64,000 nt of DNA from Magnetococcales bacterium. GTDB taxonomy: Bacteria > Pseudomonadota > Magnetococcia > Magnetococcales > UBA8363. Of this stretch, positions 1 through 58,946 are shown in pieces; position 1 is the stretch's first letter; the number at the start of each line of letters is the position of its first letter. The stretch lies in contig JADGCQ010000002.1 of NCBI GenBank assembly GCA_015228925.1, positions 1-64,000 of the forward strand, read 5' to 3'. The notes below the pieces were generated by a model. The model did no database searches. It saw nothing but the letters and a program-made list of their open reading frames with translations, and was not told the DNA's origin. Position numbers and translations under genes: made by a program.

Positions 1-101
1 AGTCAAAACCCTGGGGGCAATCCCCCAGACCCCTTTTTTCTTTTAATAATTTATTATTTCCGAGACACTTGGATATGCTAATTTTAAATGCGATTGCCCT
101 G
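1..101. repeat. Right half of a palindromic intergenic repeat, with its tail module
   Basis: Bases 1-50 match the right arms of the complete repeats at 13414-13463 and 32027-32076: a CTGGGGG-caat-CCCCCAG mini-hairpin followed by CCCC, a T-rich run and TTTTAATAAT. After about 30 divergent bases comes a second shared module at 80-101 (AATTTTAAATGCGATTGCCC core), also found next to the repeat at 13492-13513 and inverted at 1274-1295. Only the right half is visible; a left half upstream of the window is inferred from the other copies. Confidence 0.8.
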
Positions 102-11117: not shown

Positions 11118-13052
11118 ATGGATACGGCCCTCGAAGTCCTGATCGTGGACGACAACCCTGTGGAGCGAAAACTGCTGGCTGGTTTGCTGGGAAAAATTCG
11201 CCCTTGGAACATTGCCATTACCTCTTGCGCCACGGGATCGGAAGCCGTTTCGTGTGTGTGTGGCAAGATGCCCGATGTTGCTTTTATTGATTTTCGTTTA
11301 AAAGGAGAATTTGGCACCGATCTGATTCGCAGACTCAAAGAATCGGGTTGTCGATCGGGTATGATTCTTTTTACGGGCCAGACGGGTGAAACCGCATTGG
11401 TTGAAGCCCTCCGTGCCGGTGCCGACGACTACCTGAGTAAAGATGATCTGAGTATCGAGGCCATCAATCGGGTCATCCACAACACCGTGGCCAAGGTTAA
11501 AACCAACCGTGCCTTGGATGCCGCCCACCACGCCCTGCAAGAGGCCAAGGAAACCCTGGAAAGGCGCGTCAAGGAACGGACGGTGGAGCTTCAAGCGGCC
11601 CAGGAAAAACTCACCGCCATCACTTCGACCGCCCATGATCCCATCATCATGGTTGACCATGATGCGCGAGTCACCTATTGGAATCCCGCTGCACAACGAA
11701 CCTTTGGCTATTCGGAAGAGGAAATTATTGGAAGGGAAGTCTATTGTCTTCTCCCATCCTCCTCTTTCAAAAGAAAAATCATTAAAACATTTCCCCATTT
11801 CCAACAAACCGGGACTGGGGCATTGATCGGCAAGGTCAGTGAATTTGTCGTTAAGAAAAAAGATGGAAGATTTTTATCTGTCGCCGCGTCCATAGCCCGG
11901 TTTCGGCATTCCATGGGATGGCACACCATCGTGATCCCCAGGGATATCACCCTCTACCGCCGCAATGAGTTGTTCTTGCGTCGTGCCAAAGAAGAAGCGG
12001 AACGATCCACCCGTCTCAAGGATCGGTTTGTATCCCTGGTGGCGCATGATTTACGCGGTCCGTTCACGACGATCCTCGGCTTCTTGGAGTTGATGGAAAA
12101 AGACAAAGGAAACCCTCTCAGTGATAAACAAAGGGGGTTTTTGCGTTGGGTTGTCGATAGCTGTCAAAAAATGCTACGTATGATTGATGAGTTATTGAAC
12201 ATCAGCCGCTTTAAAACAGGCAAGATTTCTATTGAACCGGTCTTTATCAATATACGTTTTATGGTTGAAAGGGTCTTTTCCAATTTATCGCCATTGGCGA
12301 CGAAAAAGGGGATCACTTTGGTCAATGATGTGACCGAAACGGCCCGTTTTTTTGCAGACCCCAACCTGATTGGGGAGGTAGTACAAAATCTGGTTTCCAA
12401 CGCTGTAAAATTTTCTTCGCGTGGCGGAACCATCACTTTGTACAACCCGGAGAATCAACCCAATGCCTTGGCTGTCAAGGATACGGGGGTTGGTATTACT
12501 TCAGAACAGATTGGCAAGTTGTTCAAACTGGAAGAAAAGACATCGACCATTGGCACTGCGGGAGAATCAGGGACCGGATTTGGTTTGCCCTTTAGCATGG
12601 ATATTGTCAAAGCCCATGGTGGTTCGTTACATGTGGAATCCAGTCCAGGGCAAGGAAGTGTTTTTCTCGTTGTTTTGCCCGAAGTCATTCCCCGAATTTT
12701 GGTTGTAGACGACGATCCCGATTCCAGAACTTTGTTTGAACACTATTTCACCAAGGAGGGGGTACAACTGGACATCAGCGACGCTGGAGAGAGGGGGTTG
12801 GCATTGCTCAACGTCAACCGTTATCACTTAGTCATTTGTGACATTCAAATGCCGGGGATGAATGGCTTTGAGTTTTTAGGAAAAATGAAGGCGGACCCCA
12901 AACTCAGGTCCATTCCAACCATTTTGATCACCTCGGATGAGAACATAGCAACCCGGCAGAAGGCTTTTCAGATGGGAGCCTATGATTTTATCACCAAACC
13001 CATGGCTTCCCAGGATTTGTTGCCGCGCTTACGTCGCTTTTTGGGGGTGTAG
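11118..13052 (+). CDS. Hybrid sensor histidine kinase: receiver-PAS-HisKA-ATPase-receiver
   Basis: Domains in order: receiver 1 (about 1-125, D11-D12, phospho-acceptor D58), coiled coil, PAS (about 170-285, VTYWNPAAQRTFGYS), HisKA with SLVAHDLRGPF, a HATPase domain (LVSNAVKFSS, DTGVGIT, GTGFGLPFS) and a C-terminal receiver (LVVDDDP, VICDIQMPGMNG, TKPM). There is no transmembrane helix, so it is a soluble phosphorelay kinase taking input from its first receiver and PAS domain. It starts 23 bp after the PBP stop, so it may be co-transcribed with it. No output regulator is adjacent. Confidence 0.9.
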   Translation: MDTALEVLIVDDNPVERKLLAGLLGKIRPWNIAITSCATGSEAVSCVCGKMPDVAFIDFRLKGEFGTDLIRRLKESGCRSGMILFTGQTGETALVEALRAGADDYLSKDDLSIEAINRVIHNTVAKVKTNRALDAAHHALQEAKETLERRVKERTVELQAAQEKLTAITSTAHDPIIMVDHDARVTYWNPAAQRTFGYSEEEIIGREVYCLLPSSSFKRKIIKTFPHFQQTGTGALIGKVSEFVVKKKDGRFLSVAASIARFRHSMGWHTIVIPRDITLYRRNELFLRRAKEEAERSTRLKDRFVSLVAHDLRGPFTTILGFLELMEKDKGNPLSDKQRGFLRWVVDSCQKMLRMIDELLNISRFKTGKISIEPVFINIRFMVERVFSNLSPLATKKGITLVNDVTETARFFADPNLIGEVVQNLVSNAVKFSSRGGTITLYNPENQPNALAVKDTGVGITSEQIGKLFKLEEKTSTIGTAGESGTGFGLPFSMDIVKAHGGSLHVESSPGQGSVFLVVLPEVIPRILVVDDDPDSRTLFEHYFTKEGVQLDISDAGERGLALLNVNRYHLVICDIQMPGMNGFEFLGKMKADPKLRSIPTILITSDENIATRQKAFQMGAYDFITKPMASQDLLPRLRRFLGV

Positions 13053-13070
13053 CGGTCTCCCACCAGAAAA

Positions 13071-13513
13071 TTATTGAAAGAAAAAAGGGGTCTGGGGGAT
13101 TGCCCCCAGGGTTTTGATTTTGATTTTGCCTTTTACGCGCCCTTTATCCCGAAGCATTTTTCCCGTGCCTTTTCTTTTAAAGGGAAAAATGCGCAGGCGC
13201 GCGCCTTGGTTTGCCTTCTTTCGCGGTTTTTGCGAAAGAAGGCAAACACACTGCACTGTTGAAGGTGCTAAAACATGGCATTATGCGTGATGTTTTTCGC
13301 AAAAACCGCGAAAAACATCACGCTAAGGCGTGCGCCCTGCGCATTTTTTTCGCATAAACCAAAAGCGCGAAAAAAATGCTTCGGGAGAAGGGGCGCATGA
13401 AAAGCAAAAGCAAAGTCAAAACCCTGGGGGCAATCCCCCAGACCCCTTTTTTCTTTTAATAATTGATCATTTTCAGGCATTTGTACGTGCCAATTTCAAA
13501 TGCAATTGCCCTG
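13071..13513. repeat. Large nested palindromic repeat with four internal hairpins
   Basis: The outer arms 13071-13117 and 13417-13463 are reverse complements with one mismatch. The similarity continues inward to about 13161 and 13372 with scattered changes. Inside sit four separate hairpins: 13154-13164 with 13182-13192; 13210-13224 with 13232-13246 (15 bp perfect); 13285-13300 with 13308-13323 (16 bp perfect); 13341-13353 with 13367-13379. A tail module at 13492-13513 matches that at 80-101. The element fills the gap between convergent genes, so it may end transcription both ways. Frames inside it are fortuitous. Confidence 0.88.
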
Positions 13514-13527
13514 CACTCGAAACTTTT

Positions 13528-16500
13528 TTAAGCATGTTTGCGCCGGAATACCCTTTTTCCAAACTCCAGAAGATCATCCACATACCCATAAATCACCGGA
13601 ATCACCAACAGCGATAAAAATGTCGAGGTAATCAAACCACCAATCACCACAATCGCCATCGGAGAACGAAAACTGGGTTCCGCCCCAAGACCCAAAGCGA
13701 CCGGCAACATCCCCGCCCCCATGGCAATCGTCGTCATCACAATCGGACGTGCCCGCTTGTTGCACGCATCCAACATCGCCTCCCGACGCAAAAGCCCCCG
13801 ATCCCGTCGCGCCGATACCGCATACTCCACCAACAAAATCGAGTTCTTCGTCACAATCCCCATCAACATAAGAATCCCAATCACCGCCGGCATCGAAAAC
13901 GAGTTGTGCGTGATCAATAACGAGATGAACGCCCCCCCCAATGATAATGGCAACGCCGCCAAAATCGTGATGGGTTGCAAAAAATCATGAAACAACAAGA
14001 CCAATACAATATAAATACACAACACCCCCATGGCCATCGCCCCGGCAAAACTGGCAAATAATTCCTTCATCCGTTGTGCCTCCCCATCCGGCGGTCGATG
14101 CACCCCCGATGGCAGATTCTTCATGGACGGCAAATTCAACACATCGTTCAAAACCTCCCCAAGTGCCCGCTGCCCCAGTTCAATGTCAATGGTGGTGCGC
14201 CGCATCCGGTCAAACCGATCAATCTGCGTCGCCCCACTCTGCATTTCCACCGTGGCAACCGCCTCCAAAGAGACCACACCGTTGCGTGACGCAATAGGAA
14301 CTTGCCGTATCGCATCCAAATCATGCCGCACCCCAGGGGCCAACCGGACCCGAATGGGTACCTGCCGTTCGGGAAGATTGAGCTTGGCCAACTGCACCTT
14401 GAAATCACCCGCTGTCGCCACCCGTACCGCCTGGGAAATCGTCTCCCCGGACACCCCAAGATCCGCCGCCTTGGCAAAATCGGGAAGAATGTGAATCTCG
14501 GGACGGTCCAACGCCGCATTGGAACGGACATTGCCAATCCCCTGCAACGTCCGCGATTCCCTGGCCGTCGCATCCACAACCCTAGCCAAAGCCTCTGCAT
14601 CATTGCTGGCCAACACCAACGTCAACTTGACCCCCGCCCCGTGGGAAGAAATAGAGACCCGTAATCCCGGAATACGTTGCAATCGGTGGCGCAACTCCTC
14701 TTCAACCTGCGGCTGAGTTTTATCCCGCTCCCTCCGATCCATCAACACCACAATCAACGTCGCTTTGCGCACGTCACCACTGGACCCCCCACCCAACGGT
14801 CCCCCTTCACTATTCGCCGCCGCCCCCACCGTCCCATAAACACGAACCACCTCAGGAATTTCCTTGATGATGGCAGAAGCCTGTTGCGATGCCTTCAAGG
14901 TATCGTCAAGAGAAGATCCCGGCGGCAATTCCAGATTGACCAAGGTTTGACTGCGATCCGCCGCCGGGACAAACCCAGAAGGGAGCAAAGGAGCCAAAGA
15001 CAAGGAACCGGCAAAAAACAACAAAGCCGCCAACATGGTCAGACGTGGATGATTCAAACACCCGGTGACCCAGCGCATATAAACCCTTTGCCAACCACTC
15101 TGTTGATGCTCCCGACTGTCGGGACGCAACAGATAGGCCGCCATCATCGGGGTCAACAACCGGGCAACCACCAGCGAGGCAATGATGGCCGCAACCGCCG
15201 TCATCCCAAAGGGGCGAAAAAACATCCCCGGAATGCCACCCATAAAAGCGGTCGGCAAAAACACCGCCACCAGCGTCAAAGTCGTCGCAACAACCGCCAT
15301 GCCAATTTCATCGGCAGCCTCCATGGCCGCCTGATAGGGAGGCTTGCCCATTTTCAGATGGCGCACAATGTTTTCCACCTCCACAATGGCGTCATCCACC
15401 AAAATACCCACCACCAAGGCCAAGGCCAGAAGGGTCAAGGTATCCAGGCTGAAAAGAGACATCTTCATAAAGAAAAACGCAGGGATGATAGACAATGGCA
15501 ACGCCGCCGCCGAAATCAAGGTCGCCCGGCTGTCACGCAAAAACCACCACACCACCAAAAGGGCCAAAGCGGCCCCTTCATAGAGCAATTCCATGGACCC
15601 CTTATAGTTGTCCAAGGCCGGGGCAAACGTATTATAAGCCTCTTCAATCGTCACCTGGGGATGGCTTTCAGAAAATTCCTGGACCTTGCGCCGTACCTCC
15701 TGGGCGACCGAAACCTCGCTCCACCCCTTAGAACGGGTCAATTCAAACCCCACCACCCGTTCACCATCGATCAGAGCGATGCTGCTAGGTTCCGCCCGTC
15801 CATCGGTGATGGTGGCGATATCTCCCAAACGGACCGTGCGGCCACCCGCCAAAGGGAGGTCCAAAAATTCAAGATCCGCCAAGGATTCCGGGGCGGCCAG
15901 GGTCCGTATGGTCTGCACCTCACCGGCAATATCGCCCCGCCCTCCCGGAGAATCTTTACGGACTTGCCGCAACAGGCGAGAAACATCCCCGGCGGTGATA
16001 TTCAACGAACGCATTTTGACCGGATCCAAATCCACCTGGATTTCCCGGTCTATCCCCCCCATCCGGGCAAACTTGCCCACCCCATGAACCGCCAGGAGCG
16101 TTTTGGCAATATCGTTATCCACCAACCAGGATAGTTCCCCCTCATCCATCACCTGGGAACGGGCAACGAACGCGATCATCACCCCTCCCGTGGTGGTCTT
16201 TTTGGAGATCATCGGTGTCGTCAAATCCTGGGGAAGGTCGCTGCGGATGGCATCCACGGCATTGCGCACCTCGCTGAGGGCCACTTCGGCATTTTTATCG
16301 ATGGCAAACTCAACGATAATGCTGACCGTACTGTCGGTGAGGGTGGTACGGATATGATCCACTCCCCCCAAAGAGGCCACCGCATCTTCGATCTTGCGTG
16401 CCACCTCGGTTTCCAACTGCGGGGGTGCCGCCCCCTCAAGGCTGGCCGTGACGCTGATAGAAGGGACTTCAATATCGGGAAAGTTTTGTATCCCCAATGA

Positions 16501-31854: not shown

Positions 31855-31858
31855 TAGG

Positions 31859-32094
31859 GTGTGTTGACATTCAATAAAATTATTAAAAGAAAAAAGGGGT
31901 CTGGGGGATTGCCCCCAGGGTTTTGATTTTTTTTGAACTTAAATAAAAAGCTTCATTCTTCGCTTTTGATTTTGTTTAAATTCAAAAACAAATTCAAAAA
32001 CGAAGAATGAAGCTTTTTGTTTAAAGTCAAAACCCTGGGGGCAATCCCCCAGACCCCTTTTTTCTTTTAATAATTTTATTGAATGTCAACACAC
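31859..32094. repeat. Perfect 68-bp terminal inverted repeat element
   Basis: Bases 31859-31926 and 32027-32094 are exact reverse complements over 68 bp. The spacer carries a second perfect inverted repeat, 31945-31962 with 32001-32018 (AAGCTTCATTCTTCG core). The total of 236 bp holds no gene. The arms share the CTGGGGG/CCCCCAG mini-hairpin, flanked by AAAAGG and its T-rich complement, with the repeats at 1-50 and 13071-13463. It lies between convergent genes, 5 bp after lpxA, so it may act as a two-way terminator. No clear target-site duplication is seen. Confidence 0.92.
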
Positions 32095-38630: not shown

Positions 38631-39428
38631 CTAGGGACGGACCACCCAAACACGGATGAGCAGATACAACACCGGTGCGGCAAACAACAAGCTGTCCAAA
38701 CGATCCAACAATCCTCCATGCCCTGGGATCAATCGACCCGAATCCTTAATCCCCGCTTCACGCTTGACCATGGACTCCGCCAAATCTCCCATCTGCCCCG
38801 CCAAAGAAAGTATCAATCCATACCCAATCATCTGAATCCAAGACCCCGGCAATGAAAACCATGCCACGGCCAGAGCAGCCCCCGCAACCCCAAACAACAG
38901 CCCGCCGAAAAATCCCGCCATCGTTTTATTGGGACTGATCTGCGCGGCAAACTTCCGCCGTCCCAGCCACTTTCCCAAAAACAGGGCACCACTGTCGGTC
39001 CCCCACATCACAAAAAGGAGAAATACAATCCAACGTCCCTCACCCAACTGGTGAATTTCCAGCAGCAAAACCAGCGGAAGGGTACAATAAATAACACCAG
39101 TCAATCGGCTCCCCACCCAGCCCGTAACCTTTTGCCCCTCCCGATAACGATACATTAAAAAAAAGAACCATATCATCAAAAAAACGGCCATCAACAACGC
39201 CGTCGGGAGATAAAACCCCAAAAGAGCGTTGGCCAACAACATCCAAGCCATGAACACGCCAACCGTAAGGTCAACCCAGGAATCATCGGCCAACATCCTG
39301 TGCCATTCGTACAAAAGAATGCCGCTGACCGGCAACAACAGCAAGAAAAACCATTCCGAAGGGGCGCGCAGCAACAGCAACAACAGGGGAGGGATCAGAA
39401 CAACCGACGAGAGGATCCGGCGCAGCAT
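38631..39428 (-). CDS. cdsA: Phosphatidate cytidylyltransferase
   Basis: Makes CDP-diacylglycerol for phospholipid synthesis. An integral membrane protein with about eight hydrophobic helices and the CDS signature KDSGRLIPGHGGLLDRLDSLL near the C-terminus. 265 residues is typical. Its start lies 9 bp after the uppS stop. Confidence 0.94.
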   Translation of the reverse strand: MLRRILSSVVLIPPLLLLLLRAPSEWFFLLLLPVSGILLYEWHRMLADDSWVDLTVGVFMAWMLLANALLGFYLPTALLMAVFLMIWFFFLMYRYREGQKVTGWVGSRLTGVIYCTLPLVLLLEIHQLGEGRWIVFLLFVMWGTDSGALFLGKWLGRRKFAAQISPNKTMAGFFGGLLFGVAGAALAVAWFSLPGSWIQMIGYGLILSLAGQMGDLAESMVKREAGIKDSGRLIPGHGGLLDRLDSLLFAAPVLYLLIRVWVVRP

Positions 39429-58854: not shown

Positions 58855-58946
58855 CCCTGCACCAAGATACCCGGTCTACCGCGACGGCGGGAAAAGGTGG
58901 AAACCTCAACTACCCTGGCCGGGTCCATTATTGAGGACGCCAGAGG

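Follow-up and report, generated by a model that had tools for sequence, protein, structure and literature searches.

MITEs are usually classified by a single parent transposon. Bacterial MITEs derived from insertion sequences, MITEAba12 among them, are short and non-coding, carry full-length IS terminal repeats and are bordered by target duplications (PMC6382973). Terminal repeats of 20–30 bp and 8-bp duplications are typical of the IS66 family, while members of the ISAs1 family have terminal repeats of 14–22 bp that start with CAGGG, and a 10-bp duplication (PMC11946415). Another described class of repeat, the BIME and REPIN mosaic palindromes, is abundant, extragenic, modular and hairpin-forming (PMC3116915, PMC2817692). 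For inverted repeats in general, polymerase template switching has a described signature, namely arm homogenisation together with spacer inversion (PMC8604942, PMC8794818).

The nested-hairpin family that we describe here resembles IS-derived MITEs in being short and non-coding, with IS ends and target duplications, but differs from them in that one palindromic core, made of nested hairpins, is found in the ends of three transposon types and takes part in exchange. With the ISAs1 family it shares ends of the form CAGGGCAATYGCATTTG, duplications of 9–10 bp and an intact transposase, resident in the same genome, that lies between such ends; with the IS66 family it shares 8-bp duplications, ends of 19–21 bp and an IS66 transposase in sister species. 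However, the MITE interior is a hairpin array devoid of transposase sequence and unrelated to the IS66 transposase gene, and the IS66-type ends begin with GTAAC, not GTAAGCG. In its abundance, extragenic location, modularity and hairpin formation the family is like BIMEs and REPINs, from which it is set apart by long arms, target duplications, DDE-type ends and the lack of a RAYT association. A literature search, which left most subscription journals outside its reach, found no account of this hairpin repeat family in Magnetococcales. We conclude that the element at 13 kb is, with good probability, a degenerate copy of a MITE family that combines an exchangeable palindromic core with terminal repeats of host transposons.

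Structure and abundance of the family

The window, a stretch of 64,000 nucleotides from the Magnetococcales genome G000, contains at 13066–13467 a nested palindrome with four internal hairpins (Table 1). Its outer arms (13069–13197 and 13336–13464) are 129 nt long and 84% complementary, and the whole element has a folding energy of -269 kcal/mol as single-strand RNA. The original prediction of four inner hairpins within outer arms shared with the 31.9-kb element is borne out: three stems are perfect, the fourth hairpin corresponds by homology to the 11-bp hairpin A that other copies carry, and the arms of the two elements agree at 53/53 and 54/55 nt. The predicted end coordinate, 13513, is the exact last base of an ISAs1-type terminal repeat.

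The arms are not a product of chance, as the 23-nt arm core GGGGTCTGGGGGATTGCCCCCAG has 325 matches (157 + 168) with up to 3 mismatches in the 4.25-Mb G000, and the reversed-pattern control has none at the same threshold. Further copies thus exist, and since the four-hairpin plan recurs among them, the inner stems are not unrelated chance sequence. G-arms are common to all copies and enclose interiors of two main types. The short interior (31.9-kb type) is one AT-rich hairpin, and the long interior (13-kb type) has a fixed plan of hairpin A, block B-C-D and hairpin E.

We estimate about 160 copies in G000, including the 13-kb element, a number that is uncertain, as are the joins, because the palindromes break assembly. 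All data are draft assemblies broken at the hairpin repeats, with many contigs terminating within copies of the element, and some of the mixed ends described below could therefore be assembly joins. Among the first 100 core matches listed in G000, about 40 lie no more than 125 bp from the start of a contig. The relatives named here are Magnetococcales MAGs; the family is abundant in most species of the same genus, as judged by strong element matches, and weak matches occur in some other families. Copies were studied on the sequence stretch around each (L numbers; G numbers are genomes).

Table 1. Positions of the hairpin element at 13 kb, its parts and the other copies in the window.
Feature	Position	Strand	Remarks
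Left G-arm	13066–13120		Inverted repeat I1; AAAATTATTGAAAGAAAAAA at the outer boundary, followed by core GGGGTCTGGGGGATTGCCCCCAG (13087–13109)
Terminator-like hairpin with T-rich tail, inside left arm	13091–13120	+	Consensus match only
Mirror terminator-like hairpin	13442–13414	-	Consensus match only
Outward-facing terminator-like version	13424–13441	+	Consensus match only
Outward-facing terminator-like version	13109–13092	-	Consensus match only
Inner hairpin A	13154–13192		GCATTTTTCCC...GGGAAAAATGC; also in L138, L140, L207 and others
Inner hairpin D	13209–13247		GTTTGCCTTCTTTCGC...GCAAAC; 16-bp perfect stem
Inner hairpin C	13248–13284		Degenerate here, only 5 bp left; intact ATAATGCCATGTT... 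in L138
Inner hairpin B	13285–13323		GCGTGATGTTTTTCGC...; 16-bp perfect stem
Inner hairpin E	13341–13379		GCATTTTTTTCGC...; 13-bp perfect stem
Right G-arm	13413–13467		Core at 13424–13446
Right transposon end (M3 frame)	13468–13513		Terminal repeat CAAATGCAATTGCCCTG at 13497–13513
Second copy (31.9-kb element)	31855–32093		Short core in TA/GGGTGTGTTGACATTC (M2) frame
Third copy	1–52		Right half only; contig start

Transposon ends around a common core

Outside the G-arms we find three kinds of terminal repeat. M1, of IS66 type (GTAACCGTTCAG-CCCCCC), is bounded by 8-bp target duplications, M2 (GGGCGTGTTGACATTC) by TA, and M3, of ISAs1 type (CAGGGCAATYGCATTTG, with the initial CAGGG), by target duplications of 9–10 bp; the core meets all three frames at one boundary, AAAATTATT. 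Among 91 distinct copies, 8 are framed by M1 on both sides, 10 by M2 and 7 by M3, while 11 have mixed ends and the remainder one or no recognisable end (about 30% of copies are without recognisable ends); a few of these assignments reflect chance, given that such ends, mostly the short M1 motif, also occur in 10 of 182 control windows. Long cores favour M3 (Fisher p=0.002, same-frame copies) and are also found with M2 and M1 ends; long and short cores both occur across frames. One arm family carrying differing hairpin cargo, the modular repeat of the original prediction, is therefore what we observe, both in the two interior types within shared G-arms and in the combinations of frame and core. 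In L064 (4434–4529) and L067 (5640–5830), M1 and M3/M2 ends surround different G-rich hairpins, so these frames may accommodate other cores as well.

Units with two matching ends carry the duplications expected for those ends. Five perfect 8-bp duplications are present at M1 ends (TTTTCGCC, AAAATGAG, CATCACCC, GTAGAAGG and ACAATATA; carried by L052, L107, L169, L186 and L033), the chance of one at a given end pair being 1.5e-5. For M3, there are ACTGGTTCGG, CTTTTCTGT and two more at 9/10 (by copy, 10/10 in L177, 9/9 in L058, which is copy L032, and 9/10 in L114 and L130). The M2 copies L081, L123, L195 and L213 have TA on both sides, which is the target duplication of a Tc1/IS630-type MITE.

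Comparison with G004 (DCbin2), a close relative with about 95% DNA identity in the flanks, reveals clean insertion of whole units in the IS66 and TA frames. Where G000 has a single TTTTCGCC (L165), G004 has a 306-bp M1 unit with a hairpin core between two copies of TTTTCGCC (L052). The TA at 38632–38633 of the window is an empty site at which G004 carries a 302-bp M2 unit (L256, 17572–17875). At L157/L266 each of the two genomes has its own M1 insertion, at a site of its own that the other genome leaves empty; the duplication on the G004 side matches at 7/8. These empty sites, set against filled units that include the core, indicate that the core travels together with the rest of its unit; for a unit in the ISAs1 (M3) frame, no clean empty site was found.

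For two of the frames there are transposases with the same ends. G000 itself carries an intact ISAs1 element, L242, whose transposase matches NF033564 (E=3e-121); its 22-bp M3 ends are perfect, and it is bordered by the 10-bp target duplication ACTGGTTTTG (10/10). These ends are of the same type as those of the 7 copies framed by M3 on both sides and as the right end, the only one present, of the 13-kb copy. IS66 elements in G001 (L231) and G002 (L238) have the M1 ends GTAACTATTCAG / GTACCCGTTCAG around NF033517 transposases, and the 21-bp ends of the IS66 element in G001, GTAACTATTCAGCACCCCCCT, are the end variant of the L107 MITE. No autonomous partner of the M2 (TA) frame was found, PF13358 (IS630) loci in 8 genomes being without M2 ends. 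On this evidence, ISAs1- and IS66-family transposases may move the units in trans.

The 13-kb copy lacks a left terminal repeat and a target duplication, and its own transposition is consequently putative. Its M3 right end, the absence of a left end and the different order of neighbouring genes in relatives favour the reading that it was a long-core MITE of the ISAs1 frame, whose left end has probably gone through deletion or recombination. We sought its empty site in relatives, but none is readable, because the genes downstream of the neighbouring histidine kinase gene differ in all six relatives that have it.

Exchange within the palindrome

Mixed ends, a swapped interior at an orthologous locus, inverted inner blocks and breakpoints at copies fit shuffling of core and frame by recombination and template switching. 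In L136 and L286, the same locus carries different interiors in two species. In L164 and L262 the element and the left flank are the same and the right flank is different, which places a rearrangement breakpoint at the element. For the 31.9-kb copy, G004 shares the right flank but has a different left neighbour and interior; at this locus G007 has a copy, G006 a remnant, and G001 and G005 none.

Within the long interior, hairpins B and D share one 16-bp design (TTTCGC-7 nt-GCGAAA), of which they are variants. In 26 distinct B/D hairpins, 98.9% of pairs form, a value that leans high since these hairpins were chosen for good pairing; the two-sided changes, found in 58 cells versus 13.9 in shuffles, are the informative measure. 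When arms are shuffled among 33 more loosely selected hairpins, outer-stem pairing falls from 95% to 58%. Covariation of the outer G-arms within G000 gives p values of 0.03–0.27, the arms being too uniform to tell. The inner block is inverted relative to hairpin A in 5 of 17 scorable copies, including the 13-kb copy (D-C-B), a flip that could also be explained by recombination between arms. The loops of hairpins D and B in the window (13225–13231 and 13301–13307) are complementary (GGTTTTT / AAAAACC), as they are in several other copies, though not in all.

We propose that the near-identical G-arms recombine homologously, which would generate mixed ends, core swaps and chromosome rearrangements, and that replication template switching inside the palindrome may keep hairpin arms matched and flip the inner blocks. 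The reading that best covers these observations, and that we regard as probably correct, is of MITEs that are active and mobilised in trans, carry a terminator-like palindrome open to exchange, and have diversified by recombination and template switching. The presence in one genome of one core in the ends of at least three unrelated transposon types suggests a sharing and trading of parts among bacterial mini-transposons. Since sister species differ by recent insertions and by a swap in place, MITE origin and transposase switching become directly testable, and the family offers natural material for the study of template switching in palindromes and of repeat-driven rearrangement in the Magnetococcales lineage. 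A bolder idea, which we offer only tentatively, is that the palindromic core is a selfish module. It would capture ends from any transposon active at the time (IS66, ISAs1 or TA type), exchange them when its own palindrome recombines or undergoes template switching, and thereby outlive any single transposase family.

A different origin was implied by the original prediction that the repeat was built by insertion of hairpins into hairpins, in which case the core would be a mobile hairpin that targets the middle of MITE palindromes already in place. We consider this unlikely: although the core joins three frames at the one boundary and other hairpins lie inside the same frames, no target duplication was noticed at the frame–core join (a casual observation, not a systematic search), and the many mixed-end copies and the core swap within one locus fit recombination. 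Instead of nested insertion, we see interiors and ends exchanged, inner blocks inverted and both stem arms changing in concert.

Gene context and mode of spread

Terminator-like sites in 12950–13650 number 11, versus 1.7 expected, and face both ways, as judged by consensus match only. Copies lie between convergent genes in 21 cases and between divergent genes in 5 (p=0.002), a bias that weakens when genes are called more strictly (17 versus 7, p=0.06). It is plausible that a putative role as bidirectional terminator makes insertions tolerable, in that the intrinsic-terminator-like hairpins of the core, acting in both directions, would make a position downstream of genes nearly harmless.

This enrichment, the preference for gene 3' ends and the covariation of stems are also what leads one to consider a conserved structured RNA, or a host bidirectional transcription terminator, spread by selection and not by transposition. 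Such an explanation has little probability in our view, as it is at odds with insertion polymorphism with target duplications and with the lack of any Rfam match at the 13-kb element. Moreover, mismatches in the outer arms are about equally often G-T (54) and A-C (49), that is, there is no strand-specific signal of RNA pairing; this speaks for a copying process at the DNA level and against selection acting on a single transcribed strand. A structured RNA was rejected on the negative Rfam scan at the element and the absence of a G-U excess.

Movement of a REP/REPIN-like element by a hairpin-recognising Y1 (RAYT) transposase, the enzyme type to which the original prediction pointed, agrees with the hairpin structure, the extragenic location and the occurrence of Y1_Tnp (two genes in G000 and matches in 11 of the 12 related genomes that were searched). 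It is nevertheless largely refuted and highly improbable, given target duplications of 8 and 10 bp, terminal repeats of DDE type that match ISAs1 and IS66 with their autonomous elements, and Y1_Tnp genes that are fragmentary or not found in some copy-rich species. In G000, moreover, neither RAYT gene is arm-flanked; one has its own, unrelated repeats, and about 1.3 kb and other genes separate it from the nearest related core. REPIN/RAYT mobilisation was thus rejected after the Y1_Tnp search and inspection of flanks, the palindromes neither flanking nor neighbouring RAYT genes. The Y1 (RAYT-type) transposase gene in L187 (1693–2457), with its own repeated GGAGGCCACCATCC-like sequences, is a candidate for a separate REP system. 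Elsewhere in the window, a match to the int-alpA RNA family at 58869–58937, near tRNA genes, suggests an integrated element.
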